Assembly: GCA_034401795.1 (NCBI GenBank)
Contig: CM067369.1
Location: 141,612,681-141,676,680, forward strand
Source: Chaetoderma sp. LZ-2023a
Lineage: Eukaryota; Mollusca; Caudofoveata; Chaetodermatida; Chaetodermatidae
Reading direction: 5' to 3'
DNA: 64,000 nt
The notes below the pieces were generated by a model. The model was not told the DNA's origin. It made no database searches and saw only the letters and a list, made by a program, of their open reading frames with translations. The position numbers were made by a program, and so were the translations under genes. Below are positions 1 through 57,532 of the stretch, piece after piece; position 1 is the stretch's first letter; the number at the start of each line of letters is the position of its first letter.

Positions 1-873
1 GTTGTTGTTGCTGCTGCCGTTGTTGCTGTTGTTGTTGTTGTTGCTGTTGCTGCCGTTGTTGTTGTTGTTGCTGCTGCCGTTGTTGTTGTTGTTGTTGTTG
101 TTGTTGTTGCTGCTGCTATTGTTGTTGCTGCTGCTGTTGTTGTTGTCCTTGCTGCTGCTATTGTTGTTGCTGCTGCTGTTGTTGTTGTTGCTGCTGCCGT
201 TGTTGTTGTTGCTGCTGCTATTGTTGTTGCTGCTGCTGTTGTTGTTGTTGCTGTTGCCGTTGTTGTTGTTGCTGCTGCCGTTGTTGTTGTTGTTGTTGCT
301 GCTGCTGCTATTGTTGTTGCTGTTGCCGTTGTTGTTGTTGCTGCTGCCGTTGTTGTTGTTGCTGCTGCCGTTGTTGTTGCTGCTGCTATTGTTGTTGCTG
401 TTGCCGTTGTTGTTGCTGCTGCCGTTGTTGTTGCTGCTGCTGCTGCCGTTGTTGTTGCTGCTGCCGTTGTTGCGGCTGCTACCGTTGCTGCTGCTGCTGC
501 CGTTGTTTTTGCTGCTGCTGCCGTTGTTGCTGCTGCTGTTGTTGCTGCTACTGCTGTTGTTGTTACTGCTGCCGTTGTTGCTGCTGCTGCTGCCGTTGTT
601 GTTGCTGCTGCTGCTGTTGTTGTTACTGCTGCCGTTGTTGCTGTTGCTGCTGCTGCTGCCGTTCTTGTTCCTGCTGCTGCTGTTGTTGCTGCTGCTGCCG
701 TTGTTGCTGCTGCTGCCGTTGTTGCTGCTGCTGCTGCCGTTGTTGCTGCTGCTGCTGCCGTTGTTGTTGCTGCTGCTTCCGTTGTTGCTGCTGCTGCCGT
801 TGTCGTTGCTGCTGCTGCCGTTGTTGCTGCTGCCGTTGTTGTTGCTGCTGCTGCCGTTGTTGCTGCTGCTGCC

Positions 874-907
<34 letters not shown>

Positions 908-913
908 CTGCCG

Positions 914-954
<41 letters not shown>

Positions 955-957
955 TGT
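1..957. repeat. Interrupted (TTG/CTG/CCG)n triplet array, cut by the window edge
   Basis: Almost every triplet is TTG, CTG or CCG, with rare TTC, TTA, CTA and CGG variants. Read on the plus strand from base 2 it is an unbroken Leu/Pro frame. On the minus strand it reads Gln/Arg (CAA, CAG, CGG), but that frame is stopped wherever CTA or TTA interrupts the array. The Leu frame is open mainly because these triplets cannot form stops in that phase. I see no start context, domain or splice logic, so I treat it as a microsatellite. It begins before base 1, so its true length is unknown. Confidence 0.9.
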
Positions 958-1152
958 GGCAGCAACACGTTGCTGTCAAATTAGTTTCAAAATGTTTATC
1001 TTAGCTTTGCTGTTACCTAGAAATTGAGTTTGTGGGACGTCGGAGTTCAAAGGGTGGCCTATACATATGATAGAATATGTCATAGCTAAGCAATGCATGG
1101 TGAGTTTAGATTCATAATATGTTCTATTTTCTTGAAGTCACCTCGCAGCACG

Positions 1153-1392
1153 TTTAATCTTTTAGCCATCAAATTTGTTCAAGAAAATTTAAATTTTCAT
1201 CATCGATAATGTCCATTTACAGACCAAGAGAAGACTATTTTTGAAGATTTACCACTGGAATGACTTGCACGGTTATCGAGCCAGTCATTCCAGTGGTAAA
1301 TCTTCAAAAAGTCTTCTCTTGGTCTGCAAATGGACATTTCTCAAGAAAACTGCAGACGCCACTTTTGGCTGATTTGAGTGTTAAAGGGTTAA
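1153..1392 (+). mobile_element. F2 MITE (piggyBac-like, TTAA-ended), copy 1
   Basis: F2 is a palindromic element of about 230 bp. Its left arm runs through AATTTGTTCAAGAAAATT, GTCCATTTGCAGACCAAG and AATTTACCACTGGAATGACT to a GGCTCGGTTATCGAGCC centre, and the right arm is the complement, ending in GTTAAAGGG-TTAA. Here the centre is ACGGTTATCGAGCCAGTC. Ends of CCCTTTAA beside TTAA resemble piggyBac-type elements, which target TTAA; that superfamily link is inference because no transposase is present. The left end of this copy is degraded (CGTTTAATCTTTTAGCC). Confidence 0.75.
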
Positions 1393-1500
1393 CAGATTTA
1401 TGCTGTTACAACTGGAATTACCGAGCCAGTCATCCCAGTAAATGTTCAAATATAATCTCTTAGTTTGCAAATTGACATTTTCTATGATTTTCTATGAGCC
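1393..1500 (+). mobile_element. F2 MITE, partial second copy
   Basis: Directly after copy 1 the centre and right arm of F2 appear again: ACCGAGCCAGTCATCCCAG, then AAATGTTCAAATATAATCTC and TTGCAAATTGACATTTTCTA. The left arm is missing, which suggests a partial tandem duplication or two adjacent insertions. Confidence 0.55.
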
Positions 1501-2574
1501 AATTCTAGGATTAAATGGTTACTATAACACAGTGGATCATGTAGACACTGGGCATGCATTCCGTCGTCTGCGTCTTCTGGTCTGATGGGAGATTAGCGCA
1601 TTCATCATGCCGACAGCTCAAATACACGCTGTGGACTGCAAATTCAAGATAATGCAAATAATGTATAATTGGTATTCTGTCGAATATTTGGTATATAATG
1701 TGACTGTTATTCTCTAGCACTCTCCGCGGTTCTTCCAGACCCACCCACGTAGACGTGTTATGGAAATGCTAGCCGTTAACCTTTTACATTAAACATTTAT
1801 TGATAGCCTAAATACAAATTTTAGGTTGGTTGATAATTAATATGGGATACTTCTACAGCATGACAGACTACATTACACTAGAAATACCAGGAGGTAGCAG
1901 ATCGTGCCAAAACGGACACATAGATCGAAAATATAACATCTCCTTAAAGATTTAAACGCAGAAATCTAAATATATCTGTTTCATAGAGTTCAACAAACTA
2001 AATATGTTGAAGCTAATTGGACGGAAAGGTGTTGCTTCGACTGCCTTCGAGACAGAAGACACAATATTCTATTTGTCTTGCATTGCAATGAAATACTGTA
2101 CAGAGTCCATGTAATCTGTAAAGGAATTGTGCCTTTTTCATAAGGGCATGAAACCTGACACACTTTTGTATCATATCTGTCTGAGGATTTTCAGATGTTG
2201 ACCAATTGCGAAACACACCCTATCGACCATGGTGAACATTTTGAAAACGCCATTACCAAAAAATCAATTTTCCTCAATATCTCCGCAATTTGAATTGATA
2301 CGACCATAAGTATGGCTTCTATCCATATGTTTATGGTCAAGGTTTACAATGGTGCCATTGGGAACAAGGTGCACTGTATATAATACACGGTAATATGAAA
2401 GTTAATGATGCCATTATCAAAAAAATATTTTATTCAGTATTTTCATCATATCTAAGTATATCGATGGTGGGTAGGCCTAGTTATCATACTTTGAAGGCAT
2501 TGTGAAACTTACCACCCCGTGTCTGCCAGACAATATATAGCAGCGAAGACAAAGCCGCTATTCTTCAGAAGATC
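1501..2574. other. No recognisable feature
   Basis: AT-rich sequence with only short ORFs on both strands, none with a domain or family resemblance I can name. No tRNA fold, repeat arm or transposon terminus was seen. Confidence 0.5.
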
Positions 2575-2670
2575 TAAGGCTGTTCTCTCACTAGAAAGTT
2601 AATCGGGAATAACGTCATACTTCAGTATGACGTTATTCCGGATTAACTCCCTAGTGTGACCACGGCCTTA
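2575..2670. mobile_element. F3 hairpin MITE, copy 1
   Basis: A hairpin of about 96 bp. The ends are TAAGGCTGTTCTCTCACTAG and its near complement (CTAGTGTGACCACGGCCTTA). The centre is a perfect palindrome around GTCATACTTCAGTATGAC. A second copy lies at 59717-59814 with closely matching arms, which shows this is a mobile family rather than a chance hairpin. No coding capacity. Confidence 0.7.
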
Positions 2671-3545
2671 GTCTTCTTGATAGGATCGGAAATGTGTGTC
2701 TGACCGAGTAGTCATCCTGGCCCGTCGTCTTTGCCATACGAACACCATCTGTCACATCTTGGGCAGCAGGTTGTATCTAATTTCAGCAGGTACTTACACT
2801 CCTCCCTTAATGGATTAGCCAGGTTTTCAATCACTTCGACCAATGCTTTCTGTTGCTGAATAAATGTGGCATGTGTGCTTACTGACGCGTCACCTGGTCA
2901 GCCGTGTGTATGGAGTCCATTGTTGCTTCAAACTCTTAGATCATGCCAGCAAGTCAAACAAACAAGCATCATCTCCCTTTACAGATGTGTTGTATTTTTC
3001 GTGGGTGTGGTCAATTGCAATTTCTGAGAATACGTGTCACGTCTTCTGGACCATGAACTTACATTTATAGAGTTCATCAGCGATATCGGGATATGTCTCA
3101 TTGAGGCTGACCATGTCTCGCATATGAATTTGGAGCCGGTGTGCATAATTAGTGTGGTCCAAGCTGAAGAACTATGGTGCAATCTTCGGTAGACAGGCTG
3201 TAGAGTTAAAAGTCGGCCTCTCGTCGTGATCGTAGAAATGACAAGAAGATATTGATGCAATGTAGTATACCAGGACAGAAACTGGGCATTTTCATCATTC
3301 ATCTTCTCACTCTAGCTTTCAATCGTATCAGGCTGAGTACATATTGCTACACCCACAATGTACTGATTATAAGTCTTCCTCAGCAAGATGAAGTGGTTGC
3401 TGGCAGTTATCTTATGTACGTGTCTGGTGCCAGTGATGTGCACGGATTTCAGGAAAGAGTTTGCAGTCCCTGGAGGAGAATAACATGTGAGATTCGATGG
3501 CTATCACAAGAAGAATGCCGTGTGTCACATAACGGATAACGTCTT
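2671..3545. other. No recognisable feature
   Basis: Unique-looking sequence. The ORFs on both strands (up to about 107 codons) overlap one another and show no domain, signal peptide or codon pattern to support them. Confidence 0.45.
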
Positions 3546-17784: not shown

Positions 17785-18480
17785 ATGGTGAAACCTGGCT
17801 GCTATCCGTCGAGTATAATGGTCAAAACGAATATGTTACAGTTCTGGGCAGATCTGGTTAACGTAGGTTATGGCAAATTGCCACCAATCCTTTATTGTGT
17901 CTGCCGAGAACGGGAAAATCAGCAAAACTTTAATTTCAAATGGCTTCAGAAAATAAAATTGTTACCTCGGGAAATAGGAGAAGACTTAATTAATGCAGAT
18001 TTTATCTTTAAAATATCGTTTAGTGAAACTGACAATGGAAAAGTTACAAACGCAGTGTGTCCAAACCTGGAAAACTCAGCTTCAAGCATCTACCAGGTTA
18101 GCTTTCTGTAAGGAAATCAAGGAGGAGCTTCAATTTCAAAAATATTTAATTGCATTACCTGCTAAGGACATCATTATACTTTTTCACTTTAGGACTTTAA
18201 ATCATAAATTGACAATTGAGGCTGAACGATTGACAAGAACAGACAGAAATGACAGACTATGTACTGTTTGTAATAAACTGGATGACGAAAAACACTTTCT
18301 CTACAACTGCAACAAATACAATGACGTACGGACAAAATATATGCCACAGTACTATATCACAAGTATAAATGCGGAAAAAACCCAAATGAGCTTCTAAGAA
18401 TACGCAATGGGAATATCCTCAGAAATTTATGTAAATTGCATAAATTTGCTAAGAAACCCATTGCTCAATAAAATAAATAT
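17785..18480 (+). pseudogene. LINE A: C-terminal fragment of a non-LTR retrotransposon ORF2
   Basis: Two overlapping frames give one decayed protein: KLPPILYCVCRER and WLQKIKLLPREIGED in the first, then QTWKTQLQASTRLAFCKEIK and LIALPAKDIIILFHFRTLNH in the second. A C-terminal zinc-knuckle follows, LCTVCNKLDDEKHFLYNC (C-x2-C-x7-H-x4-C). Such a Cys-rich tail is usual in several non-LTR clades. The same layout occurs in LINE B (CQTCDDIKDEYHFLILC) and LINE C (CKLCQQNEIGDEYHYLFTC). The endonuclease and reverse transcriptase are absent, so it is 5' truncated, as is common after incomplete reverse transcription. At least one frameshift lies near 18000-18060. The clade is not assigned. Confidence 0.75.
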
Positions 18481-18764: not shown

Positions 18765-18917
18765 TATCCCACTCAAGTGTTATCAAGTTCTATTCATCAT
18801 TAACGGAAAGTGAAGAGCGATTTTAAAATTTAAGGCTTTGACGGCATACTAAAACCCATCCGGGCACTGAATCGAAAATAGGGCCCCTTACTGGTGTCGT
18901 CACTTATCCCTAAATGC
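18765..18917. repeat. Detached unit of the 130-bp tandem repeat
   Basis: TATCAAGTTCTATTCATCAT, GAGCGATTTTAAAATTTAAG, ACTAAAACCCATCCGGGCAC and AATCGAAAATAGGGCCCC match the array at 17405-17733, on the other side of LINE A. Confidence 0.6.
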
Positions 18918-18960
18918 CTTGAAAAGAGGTATGGGTGTAAATAAATTCATTCATTCATTC
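18918..18960 (+). repeat. LINE-type 3' end with (ATTC)n tail
   Basis: GAGGTATGGGTGTAAATAAA is followed by ATTCATTCATTCATTC. Nearly the same end occurs 3' of LINE C at 54877-54903 (GTGGTCTGGGGTGTAAATAA, then ATCATTTCC), which supports a shared 3' terminus. Short tandem tails are typical of several non-LTR groups. Confidence 0.55.
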
Positions 18961-19799: not shown

Positions 19800-21690
19800 A
19801 TTTAGTTTACCCATTTTGGTCGCGTAGAAGAAAAGCATTATATACAAAAGCTGCTAACTTTTGGACTGTTGAGCTGCTATTACTTTTTAACAGTTCGGTA
19901 GATTTATAAACATTTGGCCTTTTCCAATAATATGGTTTTATATATTTCTTTTGCAATTCACTGTACATTGGGCATAGAATTAAGAAGTGATATTCGTCCT
20001 TTATATCATCACATGTCTGACATTTTCGTTCTTCTATAGTGGTATTGCAATAGGTCTGAGCCACCTTCTTGTTTCAATGAATAGTCTATGCGACCCGCTA
20101 CGTAATTTGCTAAGAGCATATCGATGTTTTGCAATCCTTACTTTATCTAAATATGTTTTATAACCTAAATCGCCTGACGGATATCTGTAAAATCTTGTTT
20201 TGTTGCCCTGCTTCAAAAGTCCCATCCATTCCTGAGTAAACATATCGCAAAATTTCTGCTTATATTCTAAAACAAATTGATTTTTTATTGACATTTAATC
20301 TCTGCCCTTCCCATATATTATTAAGACCTTTCGAGCATAACATATATCTAAAAGACGTCACCCAGTTTTTACAATCATTATTATTAGACCAACCGTTGTA
20401 TAGCACAGTGTATATGTGCTTTGCTTTTCTATTTGGAGGCATATCTCTAATTTTAAACCAATATTTTAAAATTCTAATTTCCCTAGCTATTCTTAATGGC
20501 ATCCTTCCCAGTTCCCCCATAAACCATACAATTAGGTGGTGTCTGTTTAATGTGAAGTAATTGCTTACAAAAGCGGAGGTGGCATTTTTCAACATCATAC
20601 GCCGAATGAAATCCTCAGATTTCGCTACCATAACATAGTATAGGTAAATTAAGTTTATCAAATAGTTGGCACAAATGGGCTTTTGTTAAACCTATGAATT
20701 TACTACATTATTTATCTAATGCAAACACTGCTTTTTGAGCCTGTTCTGCTAAAAATCGCTGGGACTCGAAAAATGAGCCAGTAGTTGTAAATGTGATACC
20801 TAAATATTTAACCCTATTAACTATGTCAACTACCCTATTGCTATACCACCACTCGTCTCCTTGACTAAGACATCCTCCCCTCCTAAATACCATAATTTTA
20901 GTTTTCTCCACATTAACCGTTAATCATTAAATAATTTTTTCTAAATCATTCAAATACATTGCGAATGACAGACTTTCCCCTTGACGAACCCCCGTACAGC
21001 ATTCAAAACTATCTGAGAGCGTAGAATTTACCCGAACACGTGTTTTATGTCTTGATACATTGACATAATATTAACTATATTTCCTTTTACATTTAACTTT
21101 ATCAATTTGTACCACAAACAGTATCGAACTACATAATCAAAAGCTTTTGTAAAATCCACAAAAGTGAAATATTATTTCTTTCCCTTCTTCAAAACGTGTG
21201 ATATCGAGCCATGCATAGCGAATATATTGTCGATTGTACTGAGACCGGCCCTAAAACCAGCCTGTACTTCTATACGTACAGCGTTTTTATCTGCCCAGTC
21301 ATTGAGACGATTATTGAGAACCTTCGTGAATAATTTGCCAAGACAGCTCAATAACGTTATACCCCGATAATTTTGTACATCGTTTACATTGTCTTTCCTG
21401 TGAAGCGGTATTAAGATTCCCTCTAACCAAATTCCGGGAAATATTCCGCTTTTAAAAATGCCATTAAAAAGTATTGCAATATATGGTAAAAGTATTTCAA
21501 TTCCATTTTTATAAAATTCATTTATCATCAAATCTGGCCCAGGGCTTTTATTGAGCTGATGTACTGCTTTTTGTATCTATATTTTTGAAATTTATTTATT
21601 CAACTCGTCGAATACTACTTGTACTTCACTTGTTTGGTTCTCACGAACAAGATCGACAATGTCTGTGTCAGCCTGATAAAAGCCTGTCTT
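19800..21690 (-). pseudogene. LINE B: decayed non-LTR retrotransposon with the YADD block deleted
   Basis: Read on the minus strand from about 21690: EVQVVFDELNK, AVHQLNK-SPGPDLMINEF, GIFPGIWLEGILIPLHRKDN, NYRGITLLSCLGKLFTKVL, EVQAGFRAGLSTIDNIF, FTFVDFTKAFDYVVRY (RT motif A, Asp present), then a C-rich VRQGE-type block and MYLNDLEKII. The sequence then passes over two stops straight into TVNVEKTKIMVFRRGG. The 40-60 residues normally lying between, with the catalytic YADD, are missing. Downstream come KYLGITFTTTGSFFESQRFL, GELGRMPLRIAREIRILKYW, a region rich in basic residues, and the zinc knuckle CQTCDDIKDEYHFLILC. At least five frameshifts or stops. The endonuclease is absent, so it is 5' truncated and inactive. 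It is related to LINE C (shared LLSCLGKLFT). Confidence 0.85.
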
Positions 21691-44813: not shown

Positions 44814-46780
44814 AATAATATACACTTGCATACTCTTCATCAGCTGTTCGGATGTATAATCTCCAAAATAATATACACTTGCATACTCTTCATCAGCTGT
44901 TCGGATGTATAATCTCCAAAATAATATACACTTGCATAGTCTTCATCAGCTGTTCCGATGTATAATCTCCAAAATAATATACACTTGCATAGTCTTCATC
45001 AGCTGTTCGGATGTATAATCTCCAAAATAATTTACACTTGCATAGTCTTCATCAGCTGTTCCGATGTATAATCTCCAAAATAATATACACTTGCATAGTC
45101 TTCATCAGCTGTTCGGATGTATAATCTCCAAAATAATATACACTTGCATAGTCTTCATCAGCTGTTCGGATGTATAATCTCCAAAATAATATACACTTGC
45201 ATAGTCTTCATCAGCTGTTCGGATGTATAATCTCCAAAATAATATACACTTGCATAGTCTTCATCAGCTGTTCGGATGTATAATCTCCAAAATAATATAC
45301 ACTTGCATAGTCTTCATCAGCTGTTCGGATGTATAATCTCCAAAATAATATACACTTGCATAGTCTTCATCAGCTGTTCGGATGTATAATCTCCAAAATA
45401 ATATACACTTGCATAGTCTTCATCAGCTGTTCGGATGTATAATCTCCAAAATAATATACACTTGCATAGTCTTCATCAGCTGTTCGGATGTATAATCTCC
45501 AAAATAATATACACTTGCATAGTCTTCATCAGCTGTTCGGATGTATAATCTCCAAAATAATATACACTTGCATAGTCTTCATCAGCTGTTCGGATGTATA
45601 ATCTCCAAAATAATATACACTTGCATAGTCTTCATCAGCTGTTCGGATGTATAATCTCCAAAATAATATACACTTGCATAGTCTTCATCAGCTGTTCGGA
45701 TGTATAATCTCCAAAATAATATACACTAGCATAGTCTTCATCAGCTGTTCGGATGTATAATCTCCAAAATAATATACACTTGCATAGTCTTCATCAGCTG
45801 TTCGGATGTATAATCTCCAAAATAATATACACTTGCATAGTCTTCATCAGCTGTTCGGATGTATAATCTCCAAAATAATATACACTTGCATAGTCTTCAT
45901 CAGCTGTTCGGATGTATAATCTCCAAAATAATATACACTTGCATAGTCTTCATCAGCTGTTCGGATGTATAATCTCCAAAATAATATACACTTGCATAGT
46001 CTTCATCAGCTGTTCGGATGTATAATCTCCAAAATAATATACACTTGCATAGTCTTCATCAGCTGTTCGGATGTATAATCTCCAAAATAATATACACTTG
46101 CATAGTCTTCATCAGCTGTTCGGATGTATAATCTCCAAAATAATATACACTTGCATAGTCTTCATCAGCTGTTCGGATGTATAATCTCCAAAATAATATA
46201 CACTTGCGTAGTCTTCATCAGCTGTTCGGATGTATAATCTCCAAAATAATATACACTTGCATAGTCTTCATCAGCTGTTCGGGTGTATAATCTCCAAAAT
46301 AATATACACTTGCATAGTCTTCATCAGCTGTTCGGATGTATAATCTCCAAAATAATATACACTTGCATAGTCTTCATCAGCTGTTCGGATGTATAATCTC
46401 CAAAATAATTTACACTTGCATAGTCTTCATCAGCTGTTCGGATGTATAATCTCCAAAATAATATACACTTGCATAGTCTTCATCAGCTGTTCGGATGTAT
46501 AATCTCCAAAATAATATACACTTGCAGTCTTCATCAGCTGTTCGGATGTATAATCTCCAAAATAATATACACTTGCATAGTCTTCATCAGCTGTTCGGAT
46601 GTATAATCTCCAAAATAATATACACTTGCATAGTCTTCATCAGCTGTTCGGATGTATAATCTCTAAAATAATATACACTTGCATAGTCTTCATCAGCTGT
46701 TCGGATGTATAATCTCTAAAATAATATACACTTGCATAGTCTTCATCAGCTGTTCGGATGTATAATCTCCAAAATAATAT
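44814..46780. repeat. 53-bp satellite array, about 37 copies
   Basis: The unit is 53 bp: AATAATATACACTTGCATAG, TCTTCATCAGCTGTTCGGAT, GTATAATCTCCAA. Copies are almost identical. The first two read CATACTC instead of CATAGTC, copies 3 and 5 read GTTCCGATG, and single changes occur near 45027, 45727, 46207, 46282, 46409, 46663 and 46716. One copy near 46523 lacks ATA. No ORF of note crosses it. The centre AGCTGTTCGGATG has no obvious palindrome. The strong sameness implies recent expansion or ongoing homogenisation. Confidence 0.97.
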
Positions 46781-47250: not shown

Positions 47251-49143
47251 GATTGAAACTAAGATAACAGTGTTTTATTGGTGAAAGGGTTAAATTAGAT
47301 GTTTGAGCGTTTGAACTAAAAATTCATAGTTGTTCATTTGCCCCATGCTTAATTTAACCATTGCAGCGTTATTAATAGATTTTATGTCCAACATTATTAG
47401 CCAGATGAGACACGCGTAAATATGGACAACCATGCACGCGTAAGCACATCAGATATTTAGATAGCAGCCATTTTGAAATCCAAAATGGCTTCAATTTACA
47501 CAACAAGCTTAATTTCAAAAAGGCAACTATGACAATAGTTGACCTTAAAGAAATTACGGCCTTTGAAATCAGGTTTTTACACCGCTTAAAATACAAAGAT
47601 ACGACATAACATAACATTATCGCGGCCATATTAAAATCCATGATAGCTGCGTTATGTAATCTTCAGGATAATGGTATTGCAGGAGTTTAGAATAATAGGA
47701 GTAGCATCCGTTGACCCTTAAGAATATTATTGCCTTTAAAATCAAGTTTCTATATAGCTTAGAAATGAAGATATCGCTTTAAATCAATTTAGAAATTCAA
47801 GATGGCAGCCATTAGGGTAAGTTGCAAAGAATTCACCCGCAAATGCATATAAACCTGGTTTGCGCGCCAGAGAGTTTCGAGTTTCGTCCACGATCCGTTT
47901 TAGAGGACTTTGATCTTTGACATTTGACCTCCAAATCACGAGGGTTCTTCGAGGCCCCAAGCAGAATCTTCCACACTAGTTTGCTCATGGCCTGTCAGTT
48001 AACGCGCTGGACGAGGTTTGAGATAACCTTGAGTTTTGACACGTTACACTTGAATCTTTTGAACTCAAAATGGCGACGATTTTTCGGGGCCTCAAGTTTG
48101 CTCAAGACCCGTTACGTAGAACTTATCACACCGGCTGCAAGCACCGACGCACGCACACATGCACGCACGCGGATATCTATAACTATATTCTGAACTGAAC
48201 TGAAAACTGTGAGGGTTTTTTTAGGCAGGCAATATGGTGCAGACAATTGATGGAATTATTCACATTTGGTTAAAAACGACAAGTTTGACACATTGTTACC
48301 AACATTTTTAAAATGGCTACCACCATAATATGGAAATAGACCCAGATCACTAAAATTGCATTCAGTTGTCGTCAACTTCCCCCCCCCCCACCCCCAGGAG
48401 TTAGAACACCAATTTTGATATGGTAATAGTACTCTACCTACGGAATAAAGCAGATACATGAACAAATCAATATTGTTTTTGAAATATTTTATGGCTGAAT
48501 ACCTTTTTCACAAGGACAAGCATGAACGATAAAGACGTCCCAGTTGTGTCAAAGCTAGTATATTATATAAGAAAGAACATTGGCTACACGATATATTTCG
48601 GTTTTTACATTTAAAGATGGCCGTCATTTTCAAGATGGATGCTAGAGAAAGTAAGGAAAATGCCACAAAATCTATCGACTTACAGTGTAAGCAGTTGCTT
48701 AATTACGTAAATCCATAATTCTAATGGAGTTACAATGATCATAGCATATGCCTATCATACACAATATACACATTTGATATTACCTCGAGTTTGTAATTTC
48801 AAAATGGCTGCCATTTTGAATCTTGCTTCAAAATAAGTCCTTAATTAGCTGAAATACGACAATTTCAAATGTGTTGCATGTGTGCTCTAAAATACCGAGT
48901 TTTAAAATGTGACTGTTGTCTTCTATCCCAGCACATCAGATTATACTAACAGCATTCACTACTCATCTGAGTAATCTTTGTATCCGCCAACCAAGTGCGC
49001 ATACACTTATTGTCGGAAGATGAGATGCAACTTGACTTTCTACAATTGCAGCCAAAGATGTCATCAGACTGTCCTCAACTCCTGTAATATAGGGCGTTAA
49101 CAATGAGCTTTGAGTCGCTGATGCTCGTGTTTACTCAGTCACT
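47251..49143. other. Gene-free segment with repeated AAAATGGC/GCCATTTT words
   Basis: Inverted pairs recur: AGCCATTTTG/CAAAATGGCT at 47466-47490, AAGATGGCAGCCATT near 47801, CAAAATGGCGACG near 48066, AAAATGGCTACCACC near 48309, AAGATGGCCGTCATTTTC near 48614, and TTCAAAATGGCTGCCATTTT at 48798-48820. They resemble YY1-type sites and suggest a decayed tandem repeat with units of several hundred bases. ORFs are short and unsupported. A C-run lies at about 48380-48389. Confidence 0.5.
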
Positions 49144-49201
49144 GGTGGTGGTGGCGGCGGCAGCGGTGGCGGCGGTGGCGGCCGTGGCGGTGGTGGGGTG
49201 G
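49144..49201. repeat. (GGT/GGC)n tract
   Basis: GGTGGTGGTGGCGGCGGC-type sequence of about 58 bp; no supported ORF. Confidence 0.9.
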
Positions 49202-49717
49202 TAGTGAGTTTGTGGGGAAATGGAGGCCATCTTGAAATATATATTAATATTCAAATGGATACATATCTAATATTAATCAATAGGTCAAATACTATCACTA
49301 TGATAAATTTGGTGCTATTAACGAAATTCACACAATTATTTCACCATCTGTGGGAATTTGGCCTGGAAGATTATGGTTGAGTACGTTCAGGAATGGTTAA
49401 CTCTGTGATCTGGACTCTGATGACACGATAATCCTGTAATGTTGTCCAAACGCGGCATCAGAAATCAAGTTTTTGCTTCGAAGTTCTCCTGTCTCATATC
49501 TCACTGAATGGCAGCGTTGCAAGTGCTCGGCTAGCCGTGCATTGCTGAATCGTGCGCTACTTATCAGATTATAGAAACTAACAAGCGTAGATAATCTCTT
49601 GTCAGTTTGAGCGTAGGAGTTAATGAATTTTGAGGGTTGAAAAGGTTATATGAGGATGCATTATTCCTGAGTTGGTTGCTTCAGGCACAAACTTAACTTC
49701 TGAAGTGTCCTGCTTAA
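49202..49717. other. No recognisable feature
   Basis: A 60-codon ORF at its start is unsupported. Confidence 0.4.
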
Positions 49718-50022
49718 TTGGTTCTCATGGACAACAACAACAACCTACAACAACAACCTACAACAACAACAACAACAACAACAATAATAATATATGGTGA
49801 ACATATAGATAGTGACATGTACAAACATGCCAAGTATTCCGATGCTACGAAGGCCAACAGCAACAGCAGCTGTAGCAGCAGCAGCAACGACAACGACAAT
49901 AACAACAACAACAACAACAACAACAGCAACAACAACAACAATAATAATAACAACAACAACAATAACAACAACAACAATAACAACACGAACGATGACGACG
50001 ACAATACGATGACAGCAGCAGC

Positions 50023-50090
<68 letters not shown>

Positions 50091-50815
50091 CCAAAATAAC
50101 AACATAGACAACAACAATGACACTAACAATGACAGCAAAAACACCATCGAAATTAACAGCCGCATCAACAGCAACAACAACAACAGCAACAGCAGCAACA
50201 GCAACAACAACAACAACAACAGCGCCAGCAACAACACCATCAACAACACTAACATCAACAACAAAAACAACAACAAAAACAACACTGATATCCATCTCGA
50301 AATCAATAACGACAAAGACCATAGGCATGAATATTACCACACCTATAACAATAACAATGAAGACAATGACAATGACAATAAAAATAAGGGTGACAGTGAC
50401 AGTGATAACGACAATAATAATGATAATGGCAATGACAACCATATCTATAATGGCAATGATAATGACAATAAGAATGCCAAGAACAACAACAATTATAACT
50501 ATAATGACAATGACAATGACAATAAGAATGTCAAGGACAACAATAATGACAATGACAACTATAACTGTAACGGCAATAATAATGACAATACGAATGACAA
50601 GGACAGCAACAATGGCAATGACAACTATAACTATAAATGCAATGATAAGGACAACAGGAACGGCAATGATAACGATAGTAACACTGACTATGACACTGAA
50701 ATCGGTAGCGATTACGACAATGATAATGATAACAACAACAATATTGGCAACGCTAATGACACTGATAATGACAATAACCAAGAAAATTATGATGATAATA
50801 ATGATGATGATGGCG

Positions 50816-50890
<75 letters not shown>

Positions 50891-50961
50891 TAGCAGTTGA
50901 AAGAATCCAATGTGGATTCCTAAATGTATGTAGCCTGATGGCAAAACTAAAGTACCCATAG
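49718..50961 (+). repeat. Asn/Asp-codon low-complexity tract reading into LINE C
   Basis: AAC, AAT, GAC and GAT triplets dominate. From an ATG at 49727 the reading is MDNNNNLQQQ and then SSSSNDNDNNNN. Near 50000 the Asn/Asp phase moves by one base. From 49996 a single frame stays open for 321 codons to the TAG at 50959, through blocks such as HEYYHTYNNNNEDNDNDN and NENYD-like acid stretches, a run of about 23 Asn codons (50821-50889), and then IAVERIQCGFLNVCSLMAKL. That last part is the start of the LINE C endonuclease domain. Most differences between repeats are C/T at the third codon position in this frame. The long minus-strand frame (49714-50910, Ile/Val/Leu-rich) is a mirror of the composition. 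Confidence 0.7.
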
Positions 50962-53900
50962 ATGAGTGAGTTTCTGCATAAATATGATATCCTGGGCATA
51001 ACGGAAACTATGTTGGATGAATATGATAATCTGGATACCGCAATCCAAAAGAATCGAACGAATATGCGTAGAAAATCCGGAGGAATATGCTGGCTTATAA
51101 GCAATAACGTTTCGAGGTATGTCAGAGAAATTAAAACGAACAGTGAATATGCCCTGTGGGTAAGCATGTCCCAGGAATTGACTAAATTGGATAGTGAGGT
51201 AATACTAGGGTGTGTATATATACCACCAGAAGGATCTAACTACGCATCTGTAGAGGCATTTGATGAACTAGAAAATGAAATTATAGAAATGTTAGGCAAA
51301 TCCGACTACATTTTGTTAGGAGGCGATTACAATGCCAAAACAATCGAGAGAGATGATCTCATAGTTGAAGACACGGAATTATTACACTTTGCAGGAGCAG
51401 ATATGCGAGAAGTGGAATTAATTGATCGGCCAAAACAATACCAAGAGAATCTCAGAGGATAACGATCAAACAAATAAATATGGGCTTAAGTTACTAGATA
51501 TATGTAAACACAACAACTTGTGCATAGTTAATGGAAGAAAAGGCACTGATGCAAATGTCGGAAAATTAACATGCCAAAATACTTCCGTTGTTGACTATGC
51601 AATATCGACGCTTCCATTCTACAAATATATATCAGACCTTAATGTAGGAGACTTCTGCTCCATATTATCTGATAAGCACTGCCCGCTTACTGTAACCCTT
51701 AGCTGCCACCAACATATATCGGTACAAGAGTGTTATTAATGAAAAGCAAAATAAGAATGAAAAGCCCCGTGTGAAGTGGAAAAATGACAAACGAGATACA
51801 CCCTAAATTGGCCGAAATAAATGTGCAAATCGCTGATGGTAGCTTAAATAATGTGCCTTTGAATGAAATCATACACAATATTTTCAACATCTTCGAACAT
51901 TCAGCACAGACATCATTTGGGGTGGCCACCCAATATCGGTCAAAAACTAATAAAGATAATAAGCCATGATTCAATTTGGAATGCCAACAGGCTAGGAATC
52001 ACTATACTATAGTCAGGAAAGATTACACACTAAATAGAACTGATGCGAACAGACAAACCATGATCGATGCGGGCAAAGTGTCTAAGCGAACAATAATAAA
52101 AGTAAACGACCAGTATAAACAGAATACTAGGATCAAAAGTAGAGAAATGAGTAGCAAGAACCCAAAGGCTCAATATTGGAACTTAATTAACCAGAAAAGT
52201 AACAATATATGTCCAATAGACATAAACAACATGTATGAATATTTTTAAAATGTAAATAGAAATGAAGATGATAATGCTGACGAGAATATAGTTGAACCTC
52301 GAACAACAAGCGGTGAAATCCCAGATCTGGATATCACAATCAACGAAAATGAGATCTATAATGCTATTAAAAACCTGAAAAGCAATAAAGCCGTAGGCAC
52401 AGATGGTATTGCAAACGAATATATAAAGGCGACAAAAATATAATGATCAACATCTATATTCACGTCTTCAATAAGGTCCTGAACAGTGGTGAAATACCAG
52501 ATATCTGGACAGAAGGAATAATAGTGCCAATATATAAGAAAAAGGGTGACATCAACGAACCAAAAAACTACAGGTCTATCACATTACTAAGCTGTCTGGG
52601 GAAGCTCTTTACCTCAATCATATCAAACCGAATTGCTAAATTTCTGGAGGTAAACCAAAGTCTGTCTGAAAATCAGGCAGGTTTCCGACAAGATTACATC
52701 TTTACTTTATCCTCACTAATAGAAATATTCAAAAAGAGAAAGAACTGCGCTTTTATTGGTTTCGAAAAGGCTTTCGACAAGGTTTGGCGAAAAGGGCTAT
52801 GGGGAAAACTAATAAAACATAATATAGAAGGGACGGTGTTTCGGTTTATACGCAACATGTATATGAACATCAAGTCCATGGTTAAGCTAAACGGCGAACT
52901 ATCCGAAACATTTATATGCAATTGCTGCGTCAGGCAGGGTGAAAACGTATCACCAATTCTATTCTCTATCTATCTAAATGATCTGGAGAGCTATCTCGAG
53001 AGTAACGCCGTGAACCCAATCAAACTCAACTGTGCACAAAATGATCTAGACGTATCGTTCAAAATTGTGTTACTCCTATATGCTGATGACACAATATACT
53101 GAATTTCGAAAAATGCTAAATGCCTTTGGAATGTATGCCGATAAATGGAAGCTTATAGTAAATTTTTATAAAACTAAAATAATTATTTTTGGCAGTACTA
53201 AACGTTACTATGAAAGATTAAATTTTTATATTAATGGAAATGAAATAGAAATATGCTATGAATATAAGTACCTTGGAATTATTATGTCTATCAATGGTAA
53301 GTTTACAAAAGCGCGCAAGAATATATGTGAACAATCACGCAAAGCAGTATATTCCCTACTCAAAAATGCTCGCAGATTAGATTTACCCATTGACTGCCAA
53401 CCAAAATTGTTTCACCAATTAGTGGACCCGATCCTACTATATAGCTCCGAAGTAGTTGGAATTGAATGCTGCGATCAACTGGACCAGGTAAAAACTGACT
53501 TTATTAGACATATTTTAAAAGTTAAGCGTAGTACACCAAAGTATATGTTGCTAGGTGAAACTGGCGAGCTACCAATATCTATACAGGTTAAACATCGTAT
53601 AATAAAATTTTGGCAAAGCTTCTGAGCGGAAAAGAAACAAAGCTGTCAACAACACTTTATAGATATATGTTCGCAGATTACTCACAAAATGGAACTCAGT
53701 ATAGGTGGTAAATTAAAGTCAAAAATATTTTAGACGACACTGGGTATAGCTATCTCTGGACACATCAAACTGCACAAAATATAAACATGACGACAAAAAA
53801 CATCAAACAAGTTCTCAAGGACCAATATATCCAAGGATGGGAAGGACATATGCCAAACTCGTGGAAAGGGAAAACATATCACGCATTCAAAACACAGTTC

Positions 53901-54246
53901 GAACTAGAACATTATCTAACCGAGAATTACGCTTACCCATTTCCGAACAACAAACCATCACTTACCTATCGAAACAGGCCGTTGGGACAGGATAACAAGA
54001 GAACAAAGAATCTGCAAATTATGCCAACAGAATGAAATCGGAGATGAATACCATTACTTATTCACCTGCGATTATTTAAAAAAAGAAAGAGCAGACATCT
54101 TGCCTAAATCATGCTACACACATCCAAACTACTATAAGTTCCATAAGCTATTCTCTACGCAGGACATAAAATTGCTAGTAAAACTATCTAGATTTATCAA
54201 GGTGATTACACATCAATTCCCTGCTCGTAGGAAGACAACGAATTAA
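50896..54246 (+). pseudogene. LINE C: nearly complete non-LTR retrotransposon ORF2, inactivated
   Basis: Domain order is that of a LINE with an AP-type endonuclease. Endonuclease: QCGFLNVCSLMAKLKYP, DILGITETMLDEYDN (Glu of the TET motif), GCVYIPPEGSNY, YILLGGDYNAKT, and CQNTSVVDYAISTLPFYK. RT: NLKSNKAVGTDGIANEY, IWTEGIIVPIYKKKGD, NYRSITLLSCLGKLFTSI, ENQAGFRQDYIFTLSSL, CAFIGFEKAFDKVWRKGLWG, NCCVRQGENVSPILFSIYLN and LLLYADDTIY. In motif A the catalytic Asp is replaced by Gly (FIGFEKAFD where FIDFEKAFD is expected). C-terminus: GQDN-type basic region, zinc knuckle CKLCQQNEIGDEYHYLFTC, and an end near VITHQFPARRKTTN. Breaks: TAG at 50959, frameshifts near 51450, 51750, 52440, 53098, 53630-53780 and 54010, and stops at 51967 and 52246. 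Clade not assigned. Confidence 0.9.
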
Positions 54247-54711
54247 AATGTACAATGGCGACGATGACAGACCACAACACCAAAGCTAAATGTTAGCGAC
54301 TACGATGACAAAGAGAATGACAACAGTAGTTTAGACTAGGAACAGCAATGATAGTAAGCGACAATAACGACGAAGACGACGAGGATAGCGAAGACGACGA
54401 CGATAGCAGCAACACCAACAATGACAACACCAACGATACAAAACATTGACCACGACGACTACGAAATGAATACCAACAACATGAGCAACACCAACAAGAA
54501 CACCACCAACAAGAACACGAACAACACGAACAAGATCAACAATAACAACATCTACAACAACAACAACAACAACAACAACAACTACTACTACTACTACTAC
54601 TACAACATCAACTGATACTGCAATAACAACACCTCCAACAAAAACAACGGCAACAACAATGACGTCGACAACGACAAACAACAACAACAACAACAACAGC
54701 AGCAGCAGCAG

Positions 54712-54742
<31 letters not shown>

Positions 54743-54780
54743 CGCTACAACAACAGCAATATCGAAACATATATATGTGT
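54247..54780. repeat. (AAC/GAC)n low-complexity tract downstream of LINE C
   Basis: GACGAAGACGACGAGGATAG, then ACCAACAAGAACACC-type repeats, then AAC and TAC runs, AGC and AAC again. It mirrors the composition of the upstream tract (49718-50895) and lies between the ORF2 end and the shared LINE 3' terminus at 54877-54903. Confidence 0.85.
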
Positions 54781-54905
54781 ATATTGTATTCGACAAGAAA
54801 AATTGTGGATATAATGTATACTATCTACTACTCCATGTAACTACTACGTATATATCCCCCATATACCATGGAACGTGGTCTGGGGTGTAAATAAATCATT
54901 TCCTT
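54781..54905 (+). repeat. Probable LINE C 3' end
   Basis: CCATGGAACGTGGTCTGGGG, TGTAAATAAATCATTTCC. The GGGTGTAAATAAAT block is shared with the LINE-type end at 18925-18960. Confidence 0.5.
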
Positions 54906-55446
54906 GCTAATGAGATCTACTTCTATCGTTCATTATTCCATAAGCAGAAGAATCTAAAGCGAGAATGTTCAAGCCATTGTTAATTTACGGCTATCCATAG
55001 TTCGGATAATGGATACGGTAATATAATGATGAGCGTGCGTCGAGTGTATTGATTGCGTTATAAATATCGATGATGGAATGATCCCGAAAAAACTACGCTG
55101 GCTATTGAGCCCAAATCCTATTAGACTCTGGCATAATGCACAGTCATGAATGACGATAGATTATGTGGTGGAGAATTGATACCATCCCACAACAGCTGTA
55201 ACGTGTACATCAATCCAAGCGTTGTTATTGACGAGCGCGTATTAGCCTTTATTATTTTAATGAAGGTCTGTACACGTTCATATTAAGGGTCCAATATCAC
55301 GCTGGTCCGAATGCTGGATAGAAAAATTATTAAAGTTTAAAAACTCCTTAGCATGTATACTATAAAAATAATCTGGAAAGAATGACACCTGCTGTAAATA
55401 AATGTTACAAGCTGTCATACAAATTATGCAAATCAAGATAACGTAG
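54906..55446. other. No recognisable feature
   Basis: No ORF over 60 codons and no repeat arm seen. Confidence 0.4.
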
Positions 55447-55620
55447 GCAGCAACGGCACACAGTCACATTTGTTTCAAAATATTCAACAGCTTCCTGTAT
55501 AGTTTTCTGGAAATTGATAGCCAGGGAGTTCATGGATCGATCGACCCCAAATCGAGCGTGTTGTGGGCGGAGCTTAGCTAGAGATGAGAGGGGGAATAGC
55601 TAAAACTGGAAAAGTCCACC
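55447..55620 (-). mobile_element. F1 MITE, 3' half
   Basis: GGCAGCAACGGCACACAGTC, TTTCAAAATATTCAACAGCT, TTTCTGGAAATTGATAGCCA, GGATCGATCGACCCC, GGCGGAGCTTAGCTAGAG, ending AGCTAAAACTGGAAAAGTCC. Confidence 0.75.
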
Positions 55621-56227: not shown

Positions 56228-56506
56228 GCAAAAACAATAGAACGTAGAAACATGATGGTACAACTAGGCTGCCATACTTTTTGTCCCCGCGTTAGCTGAC
56301 ATAATTCCAAGTACGAAATGCACATGCGACTTCACGCCGCTTGATGTCCGTGCGTGGCGGGAAACAGCACACGTGTTCAGTTATGTAAAAGTCCAGTTTG
56401 AGGTGTAGAACATTACATACAGATTTAGGCGACAAGATTAGGAATTTTGTGTTCATGACCGTGGTTTATTTGTACAGAGAGAATTAGCTCTTGATTGTGA
56501 ACCGCT

Positions 56507-57532
56507 ATGGCAAGACGAAGGTTAAGTGATCGTGTGAAATGGCAAATCATAGGCATGCATACCACTGGTATGTCATGCAGAGAGATTGGCAGACAGCTGA
56601 ACATTAACCATACTGTAATCAGTCGTTTGATTGCAAAACATGGGCAAACTAACGAGGTGAAGGACAGGCCTAGATCTGGAAGACCGAAGAAGACTACTGC
56701 CCGTGATGATCGAGCCCTAGGGCGCCTTGTTAGGAGATCTCCATTCACCAACAGCAGAGTGCTCAGCCAGCAATGGGAAACGCGCAATAGAGTGTCAATG
56801 TCTACCGTCAAAAGGAGACTGTATGCTGCTGGCATGAAAGCTAGGAGACCTGTCAGACGTCCTCTCCTCACTGCACACCACAAAGAGGAGCGTCTGAGGT
56901 GGTGCAACGAAAGAAGACACTGGAACATGAGATCCTGGAGACGGGTACACTGGTCCGATGAAAGTCGGTTCCTGCTTCATGCCACAGATGGTCGAACTCG
57001 TGTATGGAGGTCCAGACGCACGGCGTACGACCAACGTAACATCATGGAAGAAGGTCCATTTGGTGGAGGTTCCGTTATGATATGGGGGTGCATCTCATTT
57101 GATTGTAAGCTGGATCTGTTGACTGTACCTGGAACACTAAATGGACAAAGATATCAAGTTTCCATACTGGATAGAGTTGTGGTCCCTCATTTTGTAAATC
57201 ATGCACCTGGAACCCACCCTATATTCATGGATGACAACGCCCGACCACATCGTGCTAGAGCTGTGCATGAATACCTCCGCCAGAATGCCATCGAAACCCT
57301 ACCATGGCCAGCAAGGAGCCCTGACATGAACCCTATTGAGCATATATGGGACATTCGGGGAAACATGGTGAGAAGGAGGGATCCTCCTGTGCAGAACCTA
57401 CAGCAATTAACAGACGCACTCCATCTTGAATGGCAACGAATACCACAATGGCGTATCAGTCGGTTGGTGACCAGCATGAGACGTCGTGTCCAGGCCGTCA
57501 TCCAGGCACAAGGTGGATATACCCGGTATTAA
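56507..57532 (+). CDS. Tc1-like DD34E transposase, intact
   Basis: 341 residues, the usual Tc1 length, with no stop or frameshift. It cuts its own element at the inverted ends and reinserts it at TA, acting in the nucleus. Residues 1-50 hold the first helix-turn-helix (LSDRVKWQIIGMHTTGMSC, REIGRQLNINHTVISRLI). A GRPKK motif of the GRPR/AT-hook type lies at 58-62. A second helix-turn-helix (about 64-115) includes RVSMSTVKRRLYAAGMKARR. The catalytic domain follows: D151 in VHWSDESRF, the GGGSVMIWGCIS block at 186-197, D243 in MDDNARPHRA, and E278 in SPDMNPIEHIWD. Exactly 34 residues separate D243 and E278. I chose the first ATG because it precedes the complete first HTH. The protein ends GGYTRY, as a complete C-terminus would. 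Confidence 0.95.
   Translation: MARRRLSDRVKWQIIGMHTTGMSCREIGRQLNINHTVISRLIAKHGQTNEVKDRPRSGRPKKTTARDDRALGRLVRRSPFTNSRVLSQQWETRNRVSMSTVKRRLYAAGMKARRPVRRPLLTAHHKEERLRWCNERRHWNMRSWRRVHWSDESRFLLHATDGRTRVWRSRRTAYDQRNIMEEGPFGGGSVMIWGCISFDCKLDLLTVPGTLNGQRYQVSILDRVVVPHFVNHAPGTHPIFMDDNARPHRARAVHEYLRQNAIETLPWPARSPDMNPIEHIWDIRGNMVRRRDPPVQNLQQLTDALHLEWQRIPQWRISRLVTSMRRRVQAVIQAQGGYTRY

Follow-up and report, generated by a model that had tools for sequence, protein, structure and literature searches.

Does a long asparagine- and aspartate-rich open frame that runs straight into the endonuclease of a retrotransposon belong to the protein of that retrotransposon, or is it a microsatellite that merely lies alongside? 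The question is raised by a 64,000-nucleotide stretch of the genome of the mollusc Chaetoderma sp. LZ-2023a (assembly GCA_034401795.1, contig CM067369.1, positions 141,612,681 to 141,676,680; the whole stretch is called the window below), which contains a damaged long interspersed nuclear element (LINE) with such a frame immediately before its endonuclease (EN). Comparison with other copies in the same genome makes it likely, in our view, that the Asn/Asp tract is what remains, after decay, of a low-complexity extension at the N terminus of the protein encoded by open reading frame 2 (ORF2), which carries EN and reverse transcriptase (RT), in a LINE of the apurinic/apyrimidinic endonuclease (APE) type.

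The frame itself is as the earlier note on this DNA described it: on the plus strand 321 codons are open from 49996 to 50958, with AAY and GAY codons predominating, and are closed by a TAG at 50959. Within it, an (AAT)25 run at 50816–50890 leads without a gap into the first EN residues (IAVERIQCGFLNV); Tandem Repeats Finder, applied to the window, delimited the same run and resolved the sequence upstream into imperfect triplet arrays. A codon scan of this frame found no ATG before 50938, and 49996 is the point at which a damaged frame re-opens, not a start codon. Openness alone is weak evidence here, because the +1 phase is also open across the tract, for 261 codons (the neighbouring phase had been said to be mostly open, and it is), and because an unrelated control array at 1–954, read on the minus strand, is open for 317–318 codons in two phases. 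No LINE piece lies within 2 kb of this control in a tblastn scan of the window; the control consists of imperfect GTT/GCT repeats over a long stretch that continues past the window edge, and its minus strand, with AAC/AGC/GGC, may be read as Gln or Asn. Judged from the window alone, the microsatellite reading had looked better, since there was no in-frame Met, the neighbouring phase was nearly open and the control was equally open; this preference was overturned by the copies in the host genome. Ten of the 13 (RAY)n runs of the window copy are in the EN phase, the remaining three being clustered at 49.89–50.01 kb. The copy is dead and cannot give rise to the protein, because its coding part is scattered by frameshifts over several frames and is interrupted by the TAG at 50959.

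A search of the 2.44-Gb host assembly with the RT sequence gave at least 151 matches, of which 20 loci were fetched at about 8 kb each; 16 of these (L034–L045 and L047–L050) form long alignments with the window, mostly at 82–93% identity (71% in one stretch of L042). The alignment of 5' regions proposed in the earlier note places the tract in the EN frame in the two of these 16 copies that reach it, L036 and L037, neither of which has a stop at the position of the window's TAG, as well as in L066 and the sister family described below. When the host genome was searched with the Asn run joined to EN, 131 of the 150 matches listed aligned from query residue 10 or before, and the 16 other matches listed at 80% identity or more, five of which share a 0.4-Mb span of a single contig and could be duplicates, all aligned from residue 1–10 of 77. 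Copies that begin at QCGFLNV with unrelated sequence upstream, which had been named as evidence against an extension, are therefore not the rule, even if the alignment of one copy (L035) starts only at 50935, just within EN.

The better-preserved relative L066 (C14:143665137–143666837; EN 88% identical) matches 50012–51037 of the window at 91%, and it too lacks the stop at 50959–50961. It has 501 open codons before EN motif I, the other two frames stopping after 6 and 4 codons, and all 11 of its (RAY)6+ arrays are in the Asn/Asp phase, although between some of them there are 147 and 99 nt free of such runs. From its first Met, 434 residues contain 41% Asn and 14% Asp. The comparison also extends the focal tract upstream of 49996, since 49797–49900 of the window aligns with the interior of the open extension of L066 (EHIDSDMYKHAKYSDATKA and EHIDSDMCKQAKYSDATNA, respectively); EHIDSDMYKHAKYSDATKA, a short and non-repetitive sequence located at about 49.8 kb, has only two genome matches at E ≤ 0.001, L066 and the window itself. 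Because this piece is off-frame in the window and in-frame in L066, we place the start of the extension near 49.73 kb and a frameshift at about 49.99–50.01 kb; a second frameshift near 49.79 kb is probable. The plus-strand segment 49728–49995 would thus be a 5' remnant of the Asn-rich extension, partly in another frame (49718–50107), and the element is apparently 5' truncated near 49.73 kb; among 40 listed flank matches, 49351–49735 is covered by the window alone.

A young sister family (EN identity 51–52%, RT identity mostly 58–60%) includes copies with one long open frame. Its member L051 has a single frame of 1,444 codons, with RVT_1 at 866–1123, and 1,138 of these codons remain once EN motif I is reached; among the RT matches listed, 14 have open frames of more than 1,250 codons (one in an unreadable stretch), as compared with the 1,138 of L051. 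Ten further sister copies, picked for long listed frames, were fetched at the N-terminal region, and the nine readable ones have 307–322 (six copies) or 226–237 (L061, L062 and L063) open codons before EN; in two of these open copies the EN motif has a variant residue. Among seven aligned open copies every length difference amounts to whole codons, including a loss of 33 nt in L057. The neighbouring stretches L064 and L057, when joined, give a 247-codon frame with long polyglutamine (polyQ) runs that terminates in TSLRTSLL and whose last part is also seen in L054; this ORF1 frame overlaps the start of the ORF2 frame. In L055, 255 codons separate EN from the first ORF2-frame ATG past the ORF1 stop (MFNHSTSNNNDDD), and the head of 255 residues so encoded contains 21% Asn, 14% Asp, 25% Thr and 13% Ala; two further ATGs fall within the overlap. 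The order in the sister copies is thus the polyQ end of ORF1, an ATG, about 255 codons of Asp/Asn/Thr/Ala tracts, EN and RT. In the ORF1 part of L055 all five arrays have the phase that codes for Gln when ORF1 is read as in L057 and L054. A by-eye comparison of the ORF1 ends of L066 and of the sister family revealed PPLP in common, which carries no evidential weight.

More distant lineages were sampled through five more loci from the EN match list (41–49% identity, chosen partly for long listed frames), four of which were readable. L067, which by eye resembles the sister family, and L071 are open through all of the approximately 600 nt read upstream of EN, L070 is open for 189 codons, and L046, one of the 20 loci fetched by RT, for 109; Asn/Asp is read in the EN frame in L046 and in the divergent lineages L070 and L071. 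We counted (RAY)n runs of at least six in the ORF2 stretches, and all 32 (11 in L066, 4 in L055, 3 in L046, 6 in L067, 4 in L070 and 4 in L071), which are not independent within one locus, read as Asn/Asp in the EN frame; one extra run in L046, in another phase, lies upstream of its open frame. With one observation for each of five lineages (the focal one, the sister family with L067, L046, L070 and L071) this gives (1/3)^5 = 0.004 if phases are free, a figure that overstates the case because the lineages are related, the loci were partly picked by frame length and a decayed locus, L072, was left out.

The alternative that survives best, although we regard it as unlikely, is that the arrays constitute an untranslated spacer of the element between ORF1 and EN, that ORF2 starts near EN by non-AUG initiation or reinitiation, and that the frame is open since AAY and GAY repeats rarely make stops. 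The near-openness of the +1 phase and of the control array in two phases is what such a spacer would lead one to expect, codon-level constraint is invisible in most parts, and arrays of similar make-up occur in the 3' untranslated region (UTR), past the last stop. It accounts less well for EN-frame arrays in five lineages, with the reservations just made on relatedness and frame-length choice, and for the stretches between the arrays, which are open too. A further difficulty for it lies in the start codon. The first EN residues GFLNV align with the LNI of the L1 endonuclease (a weak alignment of the sister EN with L1-type endonuclease chains, E 0.26–0.29, from residue 13 on), and no nearby AUG retains EN motif I: going upstream from EN, one meets the first in-frame Met after 180 codons in L066, 120 in L070, 50 in L055 and 51 in L067, and none is present in the 200 codons read upstream of EN in L071. 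Initiation at an AUG could therefore yield an intact EN motif I only in a protein that includes some or all of the tract.

Comparison of changes by codon position was of little help in this choice. The earlier note had seen the variation between repeats fall largely on third positions; this is not borne out by the tandem units, in which the differences at positions 1:2:3 are 4:7:7 (54-bp step) and 5:12:11 (66-bp step, 126 bases; 1:6:4 and 4:7:7 in two 66-base stretches overlapping at their ends), position 2 being the most variable in the first 300 bp and position 3, somewhat, in 50302–50815. Between copies the changes are spread over all positions in tract, EN and RT alike: 10:12:7, 12:10:12 and 10:12:15, respectively, for the focal copy and L036, and 1:6:5, 12:6:15 and 19:11:17 for the focal copy and L037. 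The comparison thus fails to discriminate coding from non-coding sequence, because the copies are dead and the RT, known to be coding, changes evenly too. In the seven sister copies the Ala/Thr array part has 13 synonymous and 9 non-synonymous differences (positions 4:5:15, with uncertain alignment of the repeats), and the acidic linker has none of either kind. Such counts are weak in both directions, because new copies drift freely once inserted.

Several observations count against an extension of ORF2 and keep our confidence in it below certainty. Other parts of the sister extension give no sign of purifying selection (synonymous to non-synonymous differences of 2:5 in the leader, 3:16 in the Asp/Asn arrays and 1:6 in the unique piece), and the start of EN itself stands at 2:2 in the same seven copies. 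Triplet arrays are stop-poor by nature, as the control at 1–954 illustrates, and the tract has few stops outside the EN phase as well (4 in phase +1 versus 31–33 in phase +2). The search with the Asn run and EN favours copies that bear the run, most relatives entered the comparison on account of their long listed frames, so that the phase count is biased, and two fetched stretches were unreadable. L068 (EN 43% identical) lacks arrays and stays open for just 72 codons; in L072, which by eye resembles L046, both arrays are out of phase and there are stops upstream, though its RT is decayed (five stops). The extensions of different families could not be aligned with one another by eye, and the EN of L051 was not recognised by Pfam at E 0.01.

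That the tract is host microsatellite DNA next to the LINE, or an array into which the LINE inserted, we consider very improbable. Arrays of similar composition do flank the coding part and occur at other places in the window, but other copies carry both arrays, and tract and EN align together in them, contrary to the simple adjacency that the earlier note had offered as an alternative. L036 gives one continuous alignment from 50421 to 54902, at 89% over its whole length, and L037 aligns from 50638 onward. The alignments of 13 of the 16 same-family copies end at 54902–54908 (those of L039, L040 and L041 stop earlier), and the homology spans the 3' array to 54905, so that the triplet array at 54247–54760 is part of the element's 3' UTR; the 5' starts of the 16 copies are scattered, as expected under truncation. 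From the flanks, only pieces of short interspersed host repeats recur in other fetched loci. Insertion into a host microsatellite is specifically contradicted by copies that share the 5' tract and the 3' array. Expansion of the tract after insertion in the focal copy alone, in frame by chance, deserves hardly any credence: the (AAT) run length does vary among copies, but the imperfect part at 50.4–50.8 kb is common to L066 (91%) and L036 (89% over the whole alignment).

If the extension of ORF2 is accepted, we infer that the tract is translated in intact members. In the better-preserved ones ORF2 would open near or overlapping the end of ORF1, with an upstream ATG available, and would then read 200–500 codons of triplet microsatellite as Asn, Asp, Thr, Ala or Ser directly into EN motif I. 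Slippage could lengthen or shorten the arrays without closing the frame; because no AAY or GAY codon becomes a stop by fewer than two changes in the EN phase, it would be safe, and arrays could pile up in the coding frame. The resulting head is probably disordered. Prion-like (Q/N-rich) regions are recognised by at least 30 Q+N in 80 residues, and we counted 44 in L066, 57 in L067, 43 in L071 and 36 in L070, with 27, below this limit, in the sister copy L055. Of the LINE with a prion-like N-terminal extension proposed in the earlier note, then, the extension is supported by the tract being in the EN frame in other copies and families, whereas the focal frame has no start codon and belongs to a dead copy, and "prion-like" applies to composition only. 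It is tempting to speculate that the head serves as a tether or as an assembly or condensate domain, perhaps together with the polyQ run of ORF1; a passive linker fits the data equally well. We also advance, tentatively and with more doubt than conviction, the idea of a LINE lineage with homopolymer tracts derived from in-frame microsatellites in both proteins (Gln in ORF1; Asn, Asp and Thr in ORF2), selected for frame and not for sequence, turning over between families and assembling the RNA–protein particle.

The remaining parts of the focal element, all on the plus strand, agree with its assignment. The Asn/Asp tract in the EN frame (49996–50893; common to L066, L036 and L037) passes into the first EN residues, IAVERIQCGFLNVCSLMAKLKYP (50890–50958), in which LNV stands at the LNINGL motif of the L1 EN. 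Past the TAG, EN resumes at 50962 (Exo_endo_phos at 1.9e-5, with 24.9 bits where the cut-off is 24.5) and continues to 51739 in two overlapping frames (50962–51462 and 51422–51739). RT occupies 52389–53102 (RVT_1, 1.9e-23; 2e-39 in L051) and is followed by a C-terminal part in several frames (53050–54246) with a zf-RVT-like CxxC..H..C region, zf-RVT being under the cut-off. Pfam scans of the focal element and L051 found no domain in the tract. The 3' UTR (54247–54769), with imperfect AAC/GAC/ACT triplet arrays inside the element, through which 13 of the 16 same-family copies align and which four copy sequences also support, is followed by the 3' terminal region (54770–54905), in which a hairpin and then GTGTAAATAAATCATTT form the family's common 3' end; the 56-nt hairpin alone is not unusual, as 20 of 200 shuffles fold as well. 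With an AP-like endonuclease, RT, a common 3' end and variable 5' truncation, the element has the sequence features by which it can be classed as an APE-type LINE, a non-LTR (long terminal repeat) retrotransposon. A repeat search of the window listed no long non-array direct repeat pair at 49.6–54.9 kb that could be LTRs. A search for a target site duplication gave one 9-bp match versus 1.0 expected by chance, and near the inferred ends 757 of 1000 shuffles were as good. In a microsatellite-targeting LINE the ends would abut the target array; here the arrays lie inside the element and the 3' end lies beyond the array, at 54905. Rfam (gathering threshold) and tRNA scans gave no match.

Outside the host genome, L001, a relative with 51% RT identity, comes from a record filed under a Bathymodiolus gill symbiont. 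Its positions 1–3085 encode a LINE of animal type that is open over 979 codons, and the bacterial record thus probably contains host DNA; L001 is uninformative on the 5' part because its contig begins inside EN, and the alignment of its 3' UTR with the window is no better than shuffles. The presence of catA1, IncFIA typing and a LINE-like RT gives L003 (NZ_CP104070.1, 15604–26071), filed as a circular Alicyclobacillus "plasmid", the look of a fosmid clone that carries animal DNA. No relatives were confirmed in viral contigs, none were found at the DNA level in E. coli, plasmids and phages, and an RT protein search of phages found no relative; other protein searches yielded, besides one likely clone contaminant, the RTs of two group II introns, a single bacterial RT protein and a phage record lacking annotation.

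Elsewhere in the window, 19843–21642 (minus strand) and 17797–18397 (plus strand) are remnants of two more broken LINEs that belong, broadly, with the focal element (RT 42% identical to the focal RT, with a C-terminal CxxC region), and in neither did a tblastn scan find an endonuclease match. The tail GGTGTAAATAAATTCATTCATT at 18908–18951, likely a LINE 3' tail, resembles that of the focal element, at 78% identity over 45 nt and with an E value of 0.008 for a search of the window. Short interspersed host repeats flank the focal LINE at 49000–49152, 49218–49350 and approximately 55444–55600, and pieces of them occur in many fetched loci. The window also contains a Tc1/mariner-like transposase frame, possibly young, of 343 codons without stops (56501–57532; HTH_Tnp_Tc3_2, DDE_3) and 37 copies of a 53-bp satellite with 98% matches (44814–46780).

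If several lineages in a single genome each place hundreds of low-complexity residues ahead of the endonuclease, they would provide natural replicates for deciding whether such tracts help a retrotransposon to assemble or are merely tolerated. Annotators, too, should take note, since such tracts will probably be taken for simple repeats and masked, and the start of ORF2 misplaced. Among the papers listed in searches of the open-licence full-text literature we found no description of a homopolymer-rich ORF2 head, which does not prove its absence. In the ORF2 protein of L1, the best-known LINE, EN likewise precedes RT, and EN starts almost at the first residue, the LNINGL motif being 13 residues into the solved EN chain. 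The present elements resemble it in this order, in the weak alignment of the sister EN and in their 5' truncated copies; they differ in that the nearest upstream in-frame Met is 50 to more than 200 codons off and the intervening stretch is of low complexity. Lepidopteran RTE elements have reportedly generated microsatellite families, likewise linking LINEs with microsatellites; in the present elements the arrays lie inside the LINE, and that on the 5' side is in the coding frame. Domains probably located at the 5' end of ORF2 are noted in L2 subgroup 5, where the domain is a PHD, and in CR1 subgroup 4 (PMC4120745). Our elements would share with these Jockey-superfamily LINEs an extra segment before the endonuclease, the PHD being of the zinc-finger type and ours consisting of homopolymer runs from triplet repeats. 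Human ORF1p is reported to have a Q-N-rich internal region and no predicted prion-like domain (PMC6295051). An assembly role for the ORF2 head is made plausible by the report that condensation of L1 ORF1p is critical for L1 retrotransposition (PMC10202459). That is likewise a LINE protein whose self-assembly matters for retrotransposition, but there it is described in terms of trimer dynamics and electrostatics, whereas here it would involve runs of Asn/Asp in the ORF2 protein and of Gln in that of ORF1.

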